A stretch of DNA of 25,906 bases from a virus, in IMG/VR virus record IMGVR_UViG_3300002143_000056, positions 1 to 25,906 of that record. The stretch is one strand, 5' to 3'. A model generated the notes under the pieces. That model was not told where the DNA came from, ran no database searches, and saw only the letters and a list, made by a program, of their open reading frames with translations. The translations under genes and the position numbers were made by a program. Below are positions 6,469 through 17,396 of the stretch, piece after piece; within the stretch, counting starts at the first letter, position 1, and every line of letters begins with the position of its first letter.

Positions 6469-6476
6469 TATTTATT
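6469..6476 (-). promoter_or_regulatory. Late promoter motif AATAAATA, 5 nt before the 754-aa gene
   Basis: Minus strand AATAAATA, then ACATT, then ATG at 6463. It overlaps the TAA stop of the terminase C-terminal gene. No Shine-Dalgarno is present. With T4 late spacing, transcription would begin at or next to the start codon. Confidence 0.6.
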
Positions 6477-7566
6477 AAAAAGAGTTGACATATATTGGCA
6501 TGGGCATGATCCACTCATCTTCGCGTTCTTCACGCATTTTGTCATAAATTGCCGGATCCCAATCCTGTAGAACCATCATCATGCGTACTGCGAGTAACAT
6601 ACTGCTAACTAGGTCGTCGTGTGATCCTACTTTTCCTTCAAATCCCAGCCCTTTTGCAACATAAGTTTTTAACTCACTTACTAAGGGTTTACTATTAATT
6701 TTTAAGCGGTTACTTTCAATTAGATGTTTTAGTTTAGCACATACACTAAGTTTACTGCCGTGTGTTGTATAAAATCCCTTACGGTATCTGCGTACGTGTC
6801 CCTTGCGTATTGGTTCACTTAGGAATAATCCCGGAATACTTTCTTCCCCAATCTCATTAATTGCAACCAAGGCAGCTTCACCAACGCTGTTATTTTCTAC
6901 ACTATAATAAAGGCTAAGTGTTACGCCTTTTTTGTTAAATTCTTGATTTATAAAGGTACATATATCTCGCAAGATTCTAACCTGCCCTTGTATCGGAGTT
7001 AAATTATGTTGCCATTCACCCACCTGTTCTAAACTAGGTAATTCTACAATTTGAATTGCGGCCGGATCACTACCTGTTCCTAGGCTAGGATCAAGTGAAA
7101 TTAGATAAGTGTTTTTAGGATTAATTTTCTTGTACCAGCGACACTGCCCCATTTTTATAATAGGGTCAATTCCGGACATGCCTGCTAGCTTAATACTATT
7201 AATTAAAGTTTCATCAAATACTAAGAACTCACAATTTTTAACAAGGATATCATTAGCATAAAATCTATGATTTTTTTCAACATCAAATAGATCATATACA
7301 GGTTCTTTGTTAGATAATTTTACAGACACTACTTTCTCAATACCACTTGCAACTTGAATTCGTATACCAGGAAACAGTTTTTGTGCTTCAATTGGGTAGA
7401 ATTTATTATCAAAAAAGTTGTGGTCAGGAGTGCAGGTTATTTCCTTGGTTTCTGTTTTTACCTTCAGCGTTTTTTGTAGGCCTTTATCTAATAGCCCCTC
7501 AAAATTACTCCATCCGGTGTCAGTAAGGACTTGTAATCCTAATTTATTTTTTAGCAATTCTTCCAC
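6475..7566 (-). CDS. 17: Terminase large subunit, C-terminal (nuclease) half, with intein C-fragment
   Basis: The 363-aa product is IntC (1-111) fused to the C-extein (112-363). IntC contains block B (ITCTPDHNFF, His49) and blocks F/G (YDLFDVEKNHRFYANDILVK, then Asn111), followed by Cys112 (+1). The C-extein starts CEFLVFDETLINSIKLA, the expected continuation of TerL after REHD in the N-half. It is the RNase H-like packaging nuclease: LISLDPSLG (Asp159), SVENNS (Glu224) and SHDDLVSSML (Asp317/318) supply the metal-binding acids. The start is GTG at 7566, with GAAGGA 7 nt upstream, lying 23 bp inside the end of the HNH gene, so its expression depends on transcription through that gene. The penultimate intein residue is Lys, where His is usual. 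Confidence 0.92.
   Translation of the reverse strand: MEELLKNKLGLQVLTDTGWSNFEGLLDKGLQKTLKVKTETKEITCTPDHNFFDNKFYPIEAQKLFPGIRIQVASGIEKVVSVKLSNKEPVYDLFDVEKNHRFYANDILVKNCEFLVFDETLINSIKLAGMSGIDPIIKMGQCRWYKKINPKNTYLISLDPSLGTGSDPAAIQIVELPSLEQVGEWQHNLTPIQGQVRILRDICTFINQEFNKKGVTLSLYYSVENNSVGEAALVAINEIGEESIPGLFLSEPIRKGHVRRYRKGFYTTHGSKLSVCAKLKHLIESNRLKINSKPLVSELKTYVAKGLGFEGKVGSHDDLVSSMLLAVRMMMVLQDWDPAIYDKMREEREDEWIMPMPIYVNSF
7234..7566 (-). other. Intein C-fragment (111 aa, blocks B to G)
   Basis: This part carries every intein block except A: block B TPDH near residue 46-49, the F block helix/strand with HRFYAND, and the terminal Asn before Cys+1 (TGT at 7231-7233). Having block B on the C-piece places the split far earlier than the usual split site, which lies after about 100 residues at the endonuclease position. 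Size is close to that known for AceL-TerL-like IntC. Confidence 0.88.
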
Positions 7567-8227
7567 GACTAAATCCTTCAGGTTGATTACCTTCTTTAAA
7601 TTGGCGGGTTACCTCGCCATTGTTATACCATAACATTCCTCGTTTTGCAGGCAGTAATCGAGGCAACCTACCTTTGATATATCCATCTGGACAATTCAGT
7701 GCGTATGTTTCTACTACTCCGTTATTGAACCAGGTTTTTCCTTTAGCAGATCCTATTATGCCTTTTTTAGCATCACTTATTTTTTTATTTCTTGCAGGAT
7801 CTTTAGTATAATCATAATATCCTTCGGCAGATCTAATTTTGATTTGTTTTTCTCTTTCTTCTTCAGACCATCCTGTGCCTTTCTTTCGTCCGCCAACACC
7901 TGGTCTTTTCACACCTCTGTTAGGGGCAGGTTTTCCATACATAGGATTTTTATCTCCTAAACGCATTTTAGATAGTTTCTCCTTGGCTTCTGTAGTATGC
8001 CTGTGGCCACCAGGATTAGAATTTTTCAATATTTCATAAATTCTTTCTTCGTCCTTCATGATACCAGATAGACTTAACCATGCTACTCTATCCTGCCATC
8101 GGCCGTATTTTTCATATAGTTCTTTATGAGCAATGGCATGCTCCTCTATACTCAATTCAACTAAATTCGAAATGTCGTTAGAACCGCCTGCGTGTCGAGG
8201 TATTATATGGTGCTTATGTAATTTCAT
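7544..8227 (-). CDS. HNH homing endonuclease inside the split terL
   Basis: This 227-aa protein starts MKLHKHHIIPRHAGG at 8227; the longer frame to 8320 overlaps intein coding sequence and lacks a better start. Residues 6-34 form an HNH nuclease core (HHIIPRHAGG, D18, NLVEL, EEHAIAH). Two NUMOD3-like DNA-binding motifs follow (KEKLSKMRLGDKNPMYGK, about 83-99; RNKKISDAKKG, about 146-156). The end has two copies of a W-F/Y-NNG...P-G/E-G...GR repeat (166-187 and 200-223), common in phage homing endonucleases. The likely target is the uninterrupted terL insertion site, spreading the intervening unit between phages. It has its own GATAAATA late motif 5 nt before the ATG and no Shine-Dalgarno. Its 3' end overlaps the TerL C-half start by 23 bp. 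Confidence 0.88.
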   Translation of the reverse strand: MKLHKHHIIPRHAGGSNDISNLVELSIEEHAIAHKELYEKYGRWQDRVAWLSLSGIMKDEERIYEILKNSNPGGHRHTTEAKEKLSKMRLGDKNPMYGKPAPNRGVKRPGVGGRKKGTGWSEEEREKQIKIRSAEGYYDYTKDPARNKKISDAKKGIIGSAKGKTWFNNGVVETYALNCPDGYIKGRLPRLLPAKRGMLWYNNGEVTRQFKEGNQPEGFSRGRIAKK

Positions 8228-8232
8228 AATAT

Positions 8233-8240
8233 TATTTATC
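8233..8240 (-). promoter_or_regulatory. Late promoter motif GATAAATA, 5 nt before the HNH gene
   Basis: Minus strand GATAAATA, then ATATT, then ATG at 8227. The motif with its spacer and start codon (ATAAATAATATTATG) is the same 15-mer as that before the 361-aa tube-fold gene at 13307. No Shine-Dalgarno. It lies in the 26-bp gap after the TerL N-half stop. Confidence 0.6.
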
Positions 8241-8253
8241 ATTTCGTCAAATA

Positions 8254-9180
8254 TTATGAACTCATCAATAATTGTTTTAGTTCTATAATTGATATTTGTT
8301 CTATTTTTCCATCGGGCCATTTAACAGATATAATGGAATTTCCAGTCACACAGTCGTGTTCTCGGCGGAACCGCTCTTCACCAATTCGAGACATTTCTTC
8401 AGCAGCCCACTTGTCATCACGATCGGGGTGCTCTCTCCAATTTGCTCTAAAAGGAAAGAATCCGTTCTTTCCTAATGTAGTTTCGTTACCATGGTCGTCA
8501 AATCTTAAATTGGCTTCTTTCCAAATTGTAGCAAATTGATCTTCGTCGTTATTTGGTGTACTAGTAATAATCGCCTTACCACCAGTTGCTAGTGTAGGTG
8601 ATATCGAAGTCCAGAATTCTGTGGCGATGTTAGGTTCAACGAACGCAAACTCGTCAGCGTATAGTAGTGATAGTGACATACCACGACCGGTTGTTTCTGT
8701 AGTTGTATGCGCTACAATCCTCGATCCATTATCAAACTCTATACTTTGTTTATTGTAACTTGTAACACCACACCGAATATGGTCGTCGCATAGTTCGTAT
8801 GCATAGCGTATGCGTTGCATAATTTCCTGTGCACCTGTGTACTTGTGCGCGGCAACAAGAATAGTTGAATCTGGAATAAACATTGCGTACCACAACAAAT
8901 ATCCTGCGGCCGTTGTCGTTTTACCTGTTTGACGAGGAAGTAAATTTACATTAAATCTATGTCCGTGATAACTGTCTACGAGTCGTCGTTGGTAATCGTA
9001 AGATTGATACTGTAACTTTCCTCGTGTGGGATGCTGTATGTAAAAAAAGTGGTCAAGGAAGTAATGAGGCCCGGTTTCTCGGTCCTGACATTGCATCAAC
9101 TCTTCGATATGCTGTTCGGTAAATCGTTGAGTTTGATGAGCTGTTTTTACCAGCTTATTGTCGATATTTTTTGATCCCAT
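8254..9180 (-). CDS. 17: Terminase large subunit, N-terminal (ATPase) half, with intein N-fragment
   Basis: The 308-aa product is the N-extein (1-276) plus IntN (277-308). The extein is the packaging motor ATPase: Walker A with the phage-type Arg (LPRQTGKTT, 81-89), Walker B plus catalytic Glu (LLYADE, 172-177), and coupling motif ITSTPN (205-210). It ends EERFRREHD, where TerL proteins continue into CEFL. Instead the sequence goes to CVTGNSIISVKWPDGKIEQI, an intein block A with Cys1, and stops 32 residues in. Spliced to the C-half it would give a 528-aa TerL, normal for the family. Start at 9180 has no Shine-Dalgarno but ATTAAATA 5 nt upstream, directly after an intrinsic terminator. Without trans-splicing, ATPase and nuclease would be separate proteins. 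Confidence 0.93.
   Translation of the reverse strand: MGSKNIDNKLVKTAHQTQRFTEQHIEELMQCQDRETGPHYFLDHFFYIQHPTRGKLQYQSYDYQRRLVDSYHGHRFNVNLLPRQTGKTTTAAGYLLWYAMFIPDSTILVAAHKYTGAQEIMQRIRYAYELCDDHIRCGVTSYNKQSIEFDNGSRIVAHTTTETTGRGMSLSLLYADEFAFVEPNIATEFWTSISPTLATGGKAIITSTPNNDEDQFATIWKEANLRFDDHGNETTLGKNGFFPFRANWREHPDRDDKWAAEEMSRIGEERFRREHDCVTGNSIISVKWPDGKIEQISIIELKQLLMSS
8257..8352 (-). other. Intein N-fragment (32 aa, block A only)
   Basis: It begins with Cys (TGT, 8350-8352) directly after Asp276 of TerL and reads CVTGNSII, the block A splicing motif, then ends at TAA (8254-8256). Usual split inteins have about 100 residues in this piece; block B is absent here and lies in the other gene. The short length matches the atypical N-terminally split class (AceL-TerL, with about 25 residues). 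Confidence 0.88.
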
Positions 9181-12221: not shown

Positions 12222-13307
12222 TTATTTCTTCAACACTATTCTAACTGGACCGGCATTAATAACACCGGTACCATGCAATCCGCCTTTACCAAACCATACA
12301 CTTATGCCGCCAAGTAAGCTAGGTTTTCGATAACTGCTAAGTCCAAATGATCCCGATCCGATGGGTCTCGGTACTGGATAGTACGGATTATTCCGGGGTA
12401 CCGGACTCCTACTCTGCATAGGAGCAGGATATGACGGTGTTGCTTTGGCGGCAATCTTGGCTAGCTGACTAAGGTTTGGACCAGTCGGTGACGGATAACT
12501 TGGTATTGGTTCGGGCGAGGGGGTCGACTTTGGTCCAAATACGCTTCCAATAGTTGGGGCATTATTCTGATTTCCTTGTCCAATGCTACCTGGAATATTA
12601 TCGTAATATAATGCTTTGTACGAATTTGCCGTGTCATCATTGACAATTTCGCCTTGATAGTATGCTACATTATCATACGCTACAGACATCTTATTCTGCA
12701 TCGTTTTTGTATCCTCTCCTTGGTTTAATACATCGTGATCCCAAGAAGTAATTAAAGGATTGGCAATACTTATTTGAGTAAACTTACCTTGATGCAATAC
12801 AAATATATCAATTTTATCAAAGAATGGAACAGTTTCGTGATTATTTAACCCGTATTCTGCGGCGTCCATGTTATATTTGTTATCGCCAAACTCCCCACCA
12901 AAGTTGCCCCGACTGGTATATCCGCTATCTGCGTAATAATATTTGTAATAATTCTTCCAGAGGCCGTTTGTTATTTCACTGTTATCGTCATGGAACTCAA
13001 AATTAATAGGTTCATAACTTATCTTAGTCTGTATGTTTGTTTTTCTATTATACTGATTTAATGTTTCGGTTGTTATTTTAAATTTTGGAAGATCAACTTT
13101 CTTAACTAACATGCCGATATCTTTATAATATCTTTCAGTCCATTGTTTGTCTTTTACTGTGCTTGGGTTAATGGTAAAAGACACATAGTACATGAACCCA
13201 AATTTAGGAGCCCGTGCAAGTCTCTCAGTTAGGTATAGCCCAGTTGCGTGTGCATAGTTTTTATACCCGCCATTACTAGATAGGAATTTATAGAAAGGAT
13301 CACTCAT
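12222..13307 (-). CDS. Tail-tube-fold protein (gp19/gp54/gp48 family-like)
   Basis: The 361-aa protein has a myovirus tube-type core in residues about 30-225: FMYYVSFTIN, VKKVDLPKFKITTETLNQYNRK, TKISYEPINFEFHDD, a helix LWKNYYKYYY, FFDKIDIFVLHQGKFTQISI, NPLITSWDHDVLNQGE, and MSVAYDNVAYYQGEI. That order (strand, DLP loop, NQYNR, FHDD, helix, ISSWD, AYD) is shared by tail tube proteins and the tube initiators and caps of baseplates. Residues about 265-330 are Pro/Ser-rich and probably disordered; a Gly-rich end follows. As gp19 itself is next door, this is more likely a baseplate tube initiator (gp54) or tube cap (gp48) than the tube. CATAAATA lies 5 nt before the ATG, no Shine-Dalgarno. Confidence 0.68.
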   Translation of the reverse strand: MSDPFYKFLSSNGGYKNYAHATGLYLTERLARAPKFGFMYYVSFTINPSTVKDKQWTERYYKDIGMLVKKVDLPKFKITTETLNQYNRKTNIQTKISYEPINFEFHDDNSEITNGLWKNYYKYYYADSGYTSRGNFGGEFGDNKYNMDAAEYGLNNHETVPFFDKIDIFVLHQGKFTQISIANPLITSWDHDVLNQGEDTKTMQNKMSVAYDNVAYYQGEIVNDDTANSYKALYYDNIPGSIGQGNQNNAPTIGSVFGPKSTPSPEPIPSYPSPTGPNLSQLAKIAAKATPSYPAPMQSRSPVPRNNPYYPVPRPIGSGSFGLSSYRKPSLLGGISVWFGKGGLHGTGVINAGPVRIVLKK

Positions 13308-13312
13308 AATAT

Positions 13313-13320
13313 TATTTATG
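13313..13320 (-). promoter_or_regulatory. Late promoter motif CATAAATA, 5 nt before the tube-fold gene
   Basis: Minus strand CATAAATA, then ATATT, then ATG at 13307. It begins 4 nt after the T-run of the gp19 terminator. The 15-mer ATAAATAATATTATG is identical to that before the HNH gene. No Shine-Dalgarno. Confidence 0.65.
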
Positions 13321-13324
13321 TCAT

Positions 13325-13350
13325 AAAAAAAGCCCGGATAACCGAGCTTT
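13325..13350 (-). terminator. Intrinsic terminator after gp19
   Basis: Minus strand: stem AAAGCTCGG / CCGGGCTTT (13342-13350 with 13329-13337; one G-T pair) around a TTAT loop, followed by seven T (13325-13331). It starts 17 bp after the gp19 stop and ends the sheath-tube transcript. Confidence 0.85.
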
Positions 13351-13367
13351 CTTTTGTTAGTGTTGGG

Positions 13368-14006
13368 TTAACTACCGATTGCTGTAGTACCAACTGTTCT
13401 ACCAACTGGAATACCAATACCAACTAATCCACCGTTAATACCGACAGTCTGTAGTGCGTTGTCATAACAAATAGTTAATTCAATATTCATTGCTTCTGTA
13501 CTCTTACTGTAATCACCGCCATCATATGATAGGGATTTAATCCAACATCCTTGCAATTCAAATGTTTCTAATGCTATTGGTTCGTATGCTCCATTACCAC
13601 CATCTAAAATTTCAATGTATGTTGTAAACTTGTAATCTAAACCAGATGCGGCACTTGCTTGTTCAAAAAAGTCAAACTGTTTCTGCATTTGTTCAGCAAC
13701 CTTATTAGTTACAAGGTTGGTCATATCGTCGCGTAACTTTAGTTTGATATCGTCAAACTTTGGCTTACCTGCGAGTTTTACAACACTGTTATAAACATCT
13801 AATTTAATTTCCTCAAAAATTGGCTTTGGACGCTCCACTGTTGCGACCTGCTTGGTTAGTTCTGTAGCAGGAGCACCACCGACACCAAAGTTAACTAATA
13901 CTACTCTAAAGCGGTATGGTAACTTAGGCATTAATAAGCCTTGGTTAGCGGCGCTTTGGTCCGTAGATAACGGAACTGAAAATCTTGATAAACTTGCGAT
14001 TGGCAT
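13368..14006 (-). CDS. 19: gp19, tail tube protein
   Basis: This 212-aa protein is the tube subunit inside the contractile sheath. It shows the family pattern: LPYRFRVVLVNFG, ELTKQVATVERPKPIFEEIKLDVYNS, KLAGKPKFDDIKLKLRDDMTN, a helix (VAEQMQKQFDFFEQASAASGLDYKF), TYIEILDGGNG, LETFELQGCWIKSLSYDGGDYSKS, and MNIELTICYDNAL at the end of the core. T4 gp19 is 163 aa; the extra length is at the N-terminus and in a Gly/Val-rich tail. It follows the sheath gene by 12 bp with a strong AGAGGAGC Shine-Dalgarno, and a terminator follows it. That the sheath and tube share one message, with the tube last, is normal for myoviruses. Confidence 0.92.
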   Translation of the reverse strand: MPIASLSRFSVPLSTDQSAANQGLLMPKLPYRFRVVLVNFGVGGAPATELTKQVATVERPKPIFEEIKLDVYNSVVKLAGKPKFDDIKLKLRDDMTNLVTNKVAEQMQKQFDFFEQASAASGLDYKFTTYIEILDGGNGAYEPIALETFELQGCWIKSLSYDGGDYSKSTEAMNIELTICYDNALQTVGINGGLVGIGIPVGRTVGTTAIGS

Positions 14007-16958: not shown

Positions 16959-16991
16959 ATCTTTTAACTCCTTAGTGGATTTACTTTGTTA

Positions 16992-16999
16992 TATTTAGT
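16992..16999 (-). promoter_or_regulatory. Possible degenerate late promoter upstream of gp18
   Basis: Minus strand ACTAAATA, one base from NATAAATA, 33 nt before the gp18 start and upstream of its Shine-Dalgarno. It is the only late-like site in the 102-bp gap on this strand. Weak. Confidence 0.3.
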
Positions 17000-17060
17000 C
17001 ATTGATGGTAAAAACCAGGCGGTAAATACACTAGGAAAAGGGCACAAAAAGGGCACCACA

Positions 17061-17396
17061 ATGAGAAAACTATGTAAAAAGTGTCAGGAACGACCAGTCG
17101 CAATTAATTACTATAAGGAAGGCAACCCCTTCTATAGATCAGTGTGCGATCAATGTTCGAGAGGGCACGAGAGAGGAGTATCGCTATGGCAACGACAGGG
17201 TTACAAAAAGAAAACAGTATGTGATAAGTGTGGTTTTAAATCAACACAGCTAGATGTTTTCAATGTCTTTTTTGTAGATGGCAACCTAACCAATTGTAGA
17301 TTTACTAACCTAAAAACAGTCTGTGCTAATTGCCAGCGTGTCCTTCAGCAAGAAGGAGTTAAGTGGAAGCAGGGAGATTTGCGTCCTGATTTTTAA
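17061..17396 (+). CDS. Cys4 zinc-ribbon protein with a degenerate HNH-like motif
   Basis: I take ATG at 17061 (MRKLCKKCQERPVAINYYK); an upstream TTG reading has no support. The 111-aa protein has four CxxC knuckles (C5/C8, C29/C32, C54/C57, C88/C91), enough for two zinc sites. Between the last two is NVFFVDGNLTNCRFTNLKTV followed by CANCQ, which follows the HNH outline (H-x-D-G...N...NL-x-T-x-C-x-x-C-H) but with Phe/Val in place of the catalytic His and Gln in place of the last His. It is thus either a non-catalytic DNA-binding relative of HNH/endonuclease VII zinc proteins or a variant enzyme. It is a lone plus-strand gene among minus-strand genes, and its stop overlaps the dNMP kinase stop from the other strand. 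Confidence 0.72.
   Translation: MRKLCKKCQERPVAINYYKEGNPFYRSVCDQCSRGHERGVSLWQRQGYKKKTVCDKCGFKSTQLDVFNVFFVDGNLTNCRFTNLKTVCANCQRVLQQEGVKWKQGDLRPDF

Follow-up and report, generated by a model that had tools for sequence, protein, structure and literature searches.

A mobile element in a phage terL gene: an atypically split intein with a homing-endonuclease gene in its split

A divided terL gene with an HNH gene between two intein halves

The 25.9-kb metagenome fragment IMGVR_UViG_3300002143_000056, hereafter the window, is a segment of a T4-like myovirus with genes for UvsX, UvsY, a gp32-like single-stranded DNA-binding protein, the tail sheath and the tail tube. Its terL gene, for the large terminase subunit, lies on the minus strand, as do all terL coordinates below. 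It is divided between two open reading frames (ORFs), broken after codon 276 (REHD|CEFLVF). The first ORF ends in the N-terminal part of an intein (IntN), the second begins with the C-terminal part (IntC), and an HNH homing-endonuclease gene lies between them. The features are as follows.

8353..9180, minus strand: TerL N-extein, the ATPase half, residues 1-276, ending REHD; Walker A (PRQTGKTT) and Walker B (LLYADE) intact
8257..8352, minus strand: IntN, 32 residues (CVTGNSIISVKWPDGKIEQISIIELKQLLMSS), with Cys1 and block A; stop codon at 8254-8256; ratio of nonsynonymous to synonymous substitution rates (dN/dS) 0.11 against L093/L094
8231..8263, minus strand: near-copy of the C-extein start, 33 nucleotides (nt), operator-like or a fossil; 19/24 nt match, position-specific scoring matrix (PSSM) score 19.1 bits
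8233..8240, minus strand: GATAAATA, a motif resembling T4/cyanophage late promoters, of putative function; 5 nt 5' of the HNH ATG
7544..8227, minus strand: HNH homing-endonuclease gene, 227 residues from the likeliest ATG; HNH motif HKHHIIP..N..H, NUMOD3, two W[FY]NNG repeats
7574..7578, minus strand: AAGGA, Shine-Dalgarno-like, 7 nt before the IntC GTG and within the HNH coding sequence; kept in most split relatives
7234..7566, minus strand: IntC, 111 residues from GTG, with blocks B, F and G, penultimate Lys and terminal Asn; dN/dS 0.07-0.08 against L093/L094
6475..7233, minus strand: TerL C-extein, the nuclease half, 252 residues, beginning at Cys+1 (CEFLVFDETL); placed by domain match and the junction in relatives
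7234..8352, minus strand: the whole mobile element IntN-HNH-IntC, 1,119 bp; delimited by the identity contrast with L093/L094 and by presence in L017 and absence from L062

The N-half ORF (9180..8254) encodes 308 residues, of which 276 form the ATPase half (Terminase_6N, E value 9e-15) and 32 belong to the intein, so that it ends ...REHD|CVTGNSIISVKWPDGKIEQISIIELKQLLMSS*. The C-half ORF (7566..6475) starts at the GTG and reads VEELLKNK...VYDLFDVEKNHRFYANDILVKN|CEFLVFDETL; its IntC carries block B (TPDH), block F (VYDLFDVEKNHRFYAND) and block G (ILVKN|C), and is followed by the nuclease half (Terminase_6C). Intein models are placed correctly on IntN and IntC, with a Pfam Intein_splicing match at 1.7e-4 and weak matches to TIGR01445 and TIGR01443. 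Joined, the two exteins (276 + 252) give a TerL of 528 residues. A first-pass annotation, made from the letters alone, had anticipated this anatomy: the end points of the element are exact, and the ATPase half running from REHD into Cys1 and 32 intein residues, the 111 residues with blocks B, F and G before Cys+1, the separate HNH gene and the 528-residue product are all found.

The HNH ORF matches the Pfam families HNH (1.8e-5) and NUMOD3 (6.4e-7), as well as the homing-endonuclease family phrog_655 (4e-15). Its longest form (8320..7544) has 258 residues, with the likeliest ATG at 8227; the first ~30 residues are probably noncoding, because relatives (L005, L017 and L106) have stops there. 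At its other end, the HNH gene overlaps the first 23 nt of IntC.

These overlaps bear on whether the gap is removed from the RNA as an HNH-bearing intron of group I or II, which would leave a contiguous cis-intein. Enzymes with HNH and NUMOD3 domains are often intron-borne, this one weakly matches the group I intron endonuclease model TIGR01453, and the published reading of terL in Campylobacter phage IBB_35 invokes an intron (PMC3322345). We nevertheless consider an intron very improbable here. HNH coding sequence, which overlaps IntN and IntC, takes up almost the entire gap and leaves no space for a ribozyme core; moreover, IntN is closed by a stop codon of its own, and IntC starts at a GTG that follows a Shine-Dalgarno-like site. 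A search of the gap with Rfam returned no intron match at E <= 1 and two chance-level matches to other families.

Insertion site, mobility and selection

The insertion site was located by comparison with the 80 IMG/VR contigs nearest to the TerL N half. In nearly all of them, the equivalent of residue 276 is joined directly to that of residue 277 in one ORF, and terL is interrupted at this point only in L005, L017 and L047. L017 and the contigs L062/L066 belong to the same phage lineage, their DNA being 97% identical across 3.1 kb on the upstream side and as much as 5 kb on the downstream side, and L017 is longer by exactly 1,119 bp, inserted between GAGCACGAA and TGTGAATTT (GAA / TGT). Uninterrupted relatives, which the first-pass annotation had proposed as a check, thus place the junction exactly at 276/277. 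Because relatives join the two exteins directly and a 97% identical phage has no such insert, the split arrangement is not a product of chance.

In DNA the element matches its counterparts in L093/L094 at 92-93% identity, against 70-71% for the terL exteins (Fisher p 1e-48 to 1e-50), and the break points in identity are the splice junctions. Constraint alone would not account for this contrast, since the exteins are saturated at synonymous sites (proportion of synonymous differences 0.78-0.89) and the element has a synonymous divergence (dS) of only 0.2-0.55. The high identity of the element and its low dS show a recent move of the block, as a unit, between phages whose terL genes diverged long ago. 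dN/dS is 0.07-0.11 across IntN, HNH and IntC, so all three parts are maintained. The element is patchily distributed on the extein tree, where at least six changes are forced, and it has spread into empty sites in the manner of HNH homing endonucleases, with cleavage predicted from the family. Among annotated isolates, no DNA match to the element was found in 50,697 phage records, and its relatives there are distant ones at the protein level; the IntC profile gave no confirmed match in bacterial and archaeal genomes.

An IntC profile collected 52 IMG/VR loci, about two dozen of which have HNH in the split, some of them partial or near-duplicate. About 30 contigs share the same overall architecture and about 30 relatives keep the exact junction, which bears out the earlier call of a fractured terL gene with an early-split intein. 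This recurrence also addresses the possibility that terL is dead and that the insertion is decaying or was created by assembly. The record is a metagenome fragment, but the architecture recurs in those contigs and a similar one is present in two isolates, Serratia phage 92A1 and Providencia phage PSTRCR_127; purifying selection acts on all parts, and the TerL catalytic motifs are intact. The idea of a dead gene or artefact is thus already contradicted, and we give it next to no weight.

Fold, splicing residues and the predicted trans-splicing of TerL

The relative L047, in which the intein halves are contiguous and fused in one frame, was folded with AlphaFold2 from the family alignment. The model is a HINT domain (predicted local distance difference test score 90.5, predicted template modelling score 0.82), and the split position lies in its only disordered stretch, a linker after α1 (helix 22-30). 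A Foldseek search of the PDB with this model returned VidaL (6vgv) first (E 1.7e-11, template modelling score 0.80), followed by other inteins, and VidaL is also the best PDB match by sequence. VidaL likewise has a naturally short IntN, of 16 residues, but is split after strand β2 (PMC13014065), whereas the window intein is split after α1.

The catalytic residues of class-1 inteins are kept: Cys1, the block B TxxH (TPDH), the block F Asp, the terminal Asn and Cys+1. The block F His position varies between His, Tyr and Arg. The penultimate residue is Lys in the window and Lys or Ser, never His, in all HNH-clade members checked, so the Lys noticed in the first pass is real and conserved. A penultimate His is usual in inteins without defining them. 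The family also supplies new split inteins of the Cys1/Cys+1 type in which Lys or Ser takes that place.

Among known systems, AceL-TerL (25/104 residues in IntN/IntC) and GOS-TerL (37/115 residues) resemble the window intein (32/111 residues) in host protein, in the split after α1 and in the combination of a short IntN with a long IntC (Thiel 2014; Bachmann and Mootz 2015; via PMC11766414). At 32 residues, IntN lies within the natural range of 15-37 for atypically split inteins, with GOS-TerL at its upper end (PMC11766414, PMC13014065), and is not notably long, although the first-pass annotation had described a longer IntN. We located AceL-TerL with a degenerate DNA pattern of its IntN, the sequence of which was confirmed by an exact match. 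It occurs in L149-L151, in phage context and without an endonuclease gene, with the exact 25-residue IntN (TEFE|CVYGDTMVETEDGKIKIEDLYKRLA*) and a 104-residue IntC ending SHN|CEFLGS, in agreement with the published sizes. Its Cys1 aligns with that of the window in TerL, which makes the insertion residue homologous; both inteins use Cys1 and Cys+1, both C-exteins begin CEFL, and the two IntC are related (hhalign E 2.4e-6, 26% identical). The kinship proposed in the first pass therefore holds. AceL-TerL differs in its penultimate His and in an IntN stop that overlaps the IntC ATG, where the window has Lys and an HNH gene in the split. AceL-like inteins are valued in protein labelling for their short IntN.

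The arrangement also recalls the fractured genes that Dassa and colleagues reportedly described in 2009, in which the host gene is divided between two ORFs that each carry half of an intein, with an independent endonuclease gene in the middle. The window terL likewise consists of two ORFs whose intein halves match, separated by an independent HNH ORF, and orthologues uninterrupted at the same point exist; it differs from that general description in its atypical split after about 30 residues and in its HNH and NUMOD3 domains. 92A1 (L084) and PSTRCR_127 (L087) have the same site (QEH|C), an IntN of 35-37 residues and an endonuclease-like ORF in the gap, but this is of GIY-YIG type (SegE-like, weak Pfam match) instead of HNH, and their penultimate residue is His (LTHN). 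Their records annotate the pieces merely as hypothetical proteins and terminase pieces; as named phages, both are convenient for proteomics. In IBB_35, a terL intein is interrupted by the endonuclease MobE after the IntN helix (DFYN), at a different TerL site, Walker B.

The published account of IBB_35 terL is an intein plus an intron (PMC3322345); to us the 'intron' with MobE (L090:2547-5402) looks like an endonuclease inserted in the intein after α1. In the related phage CP21 (L086:3509-5404) the same intein is contiguous, and CP21 terL holds three inteins.

We interpret the window locus, with a probability of about 0.88, as a mobile composite element in terL, consisting of an atypically split class-1 intein and a homing-endonuclease gene in its split, with the packaging motor predicted to be assembled by trans-splicing. 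Among the known atypically split TerL inteins it forms a new branch, marked by an HNH gene and a penultimate Lys, in a fractured-gene arrangement. TerL-N-IntN, HNH and IntC-TerL-C would be made from overlapping genes, and IntN and IntC would associate into a HINT domain. Trans-splicing through Cys1, the block B TxxH, the block F Asp/His, the terminal Asn and Cys+1 would ligate Asp276 to Cys277 and yield the 528-residue motor. The HNH enzyme, judged by its family, would cut the uninterrupted terL site, and repair would transfer the entire 1,119-bp block to that site. Situated between the ATPase and nuclease domains of an essential enzyme, the site would tolerate only exact removal of the element or continued splicing. 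The first-pass annotation held that the motor requires trans-splicing; intact catalytic residues, purifying selection and homology make this a strong inference rather than an established fact.

Several points weigh against this interpretation. The Lys in place of the penultimate His could mean slower splicing or side reactions, the structural model covers the contiguous L047 and not the window's IntN and IntC pair, and a second intact terL may lie elsewhere in the genome, of which the window is a fragment. Furthermore, some homing-endonuclease genes-in-pieces work without splicing, as in Aeh1 NrdA (PMC2988022). By analogy with that T4-like phage precedent, the TerL halves could act unspliced as a two-subunit enzyme, with the intein halves as inert tails left by endonuclease insertion, and the break does fall between the ATPase and nuclease domains. 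However, Cys1, TxxH, the block F Asp, the Asn and Cys+1 are kept in IntN and IntC at a dN/dS of about 0.1, the exact junction persists across the relatives, and in L047 and L129 the halves are fused in one frame, where an unspliced TerL would hold a whole domain inside. We therefore regard a two-subunit TerL as unlikely.

With trans-splicing as the favoured interpretation, an essential phage motor would repeatedly have been entrusted to it, in a few phages apparently in three pieces. The family links the early split of AceL-like inteins with endonuclease insertion, two matters usually treated apart. It includes about 30 members with an endonuclease gene and two that are contiguous, and near-identical phages with an empty site exist, so that ideas on how split inteins arise, revert and spread can be tested directly.

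Different endonucleases, re-fusion and the sequence before the HNH gene

Three points appear to be new: different endonucleases in the same slot, a re-fused relative with a fossil of the HNH tail, and the 33-nt copy of a target half before the HNH gene. In L107 and L125/L126 the NUMOD3 tail is the same but the front is of GIY-YIG type, with weak Pfam support in L107 and none in L125, and L119/L122 have a DUF7487 protein in the split. In L047 (1063-1518) the linker between IntN and IntC, read in another frame, gives EFKENTQPEEFNRGRISKK*, the C-terminal tail of an HNH protein with its stop. Chance cannot plausibly give such an out-of-frame tail, and L047 is therefore a re-fused intein, derived by deletion from a split, HNH-bearing element. 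The contiguous L129 groups with the split L119 (support 94/80), its halves joined at DLYN|NTE; in this pair either the fused or the split state may be the older one.

L107 (904-5095) and L129 (2-3173) each contain a further split intein, at Walker B of TerL (LLYC.../HQ|CDEFAF), accompanied by another endonuclease-like ORF; its position resembles that of gene 225 in Salicola phage SCTP-2. The terL gene of L107 is in three pieces.

The sequence GAGTTCATAATATTTGACGAAATGATAAATAAT, directly 5' of the HNH start, is almost a repeat of GAGTTCTTAGTATTTGATGAAACTTTAATTAAT, with which the C-extein begins. The C-extein is the best match of this copy within the locus, and its PSSM score compares with a background maximum of -0.4 (48,308 positions). 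The copy stands at the same offset in most HNH-type relatives and is missing from L119, L121 and L125. It resembles the right half of the insertion site only; a copy of the left half was searched for inside the element and not found. In I-TevI, autorepression acts through a copy of the homing site without the cleavage part, with an operator match of 15/20 (PMC2988022), and in the window, too, the endonuclease ORF is directly preceded by a sequence that resembles the homing site. By this analogy the copy could be an operator for self-repression by the predicted HNH enzyme or, equally possibly, a fossil of the entry of the endonuclease gene.

The NATAAATA motif that precedes the HNH ATG by 5 nt is present at 7/8 or better in 19/22 HNH-type elements, against 4% of random windows, and resembles the late promoter of cyanophage S-PM2 (PMC2984593). 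It might serve as a late promoter overlapping the putative operator, with a very short leader. We treat this as a lead only, because the exact TATAAATA occurs just once on the window coding strand, before the gp32-like gene.

More broadly, and tentatively, the atypical TerL split site may be a place where homing endonucleases (HNH, GIY-YIG, DUF7487) dock repeatedly and can stand in for one another, their insertion making the split and their later loss re-fusing the intein, as the HNH-tail fossil of L047 would suggest, while the half-target copy before the HNH start would act as an operator for self-repression without cutting. To our knowledge, such operator self-control would be the first in a split-intein element.

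Elsewhere in the window, a 136-residue Cys-rich ORF (16986-17396, plus strand) lies on the opposite strand between the tail sheath and deoxynucleoside monophosphate kinase genes; it looks zinc-finger- or HNH-like by eye and is without a PHROG match. Two adjoining genes (12222-14006, minus strand) both match the tail-tube family phrog_4542, which suggests a duplicated tube protein.

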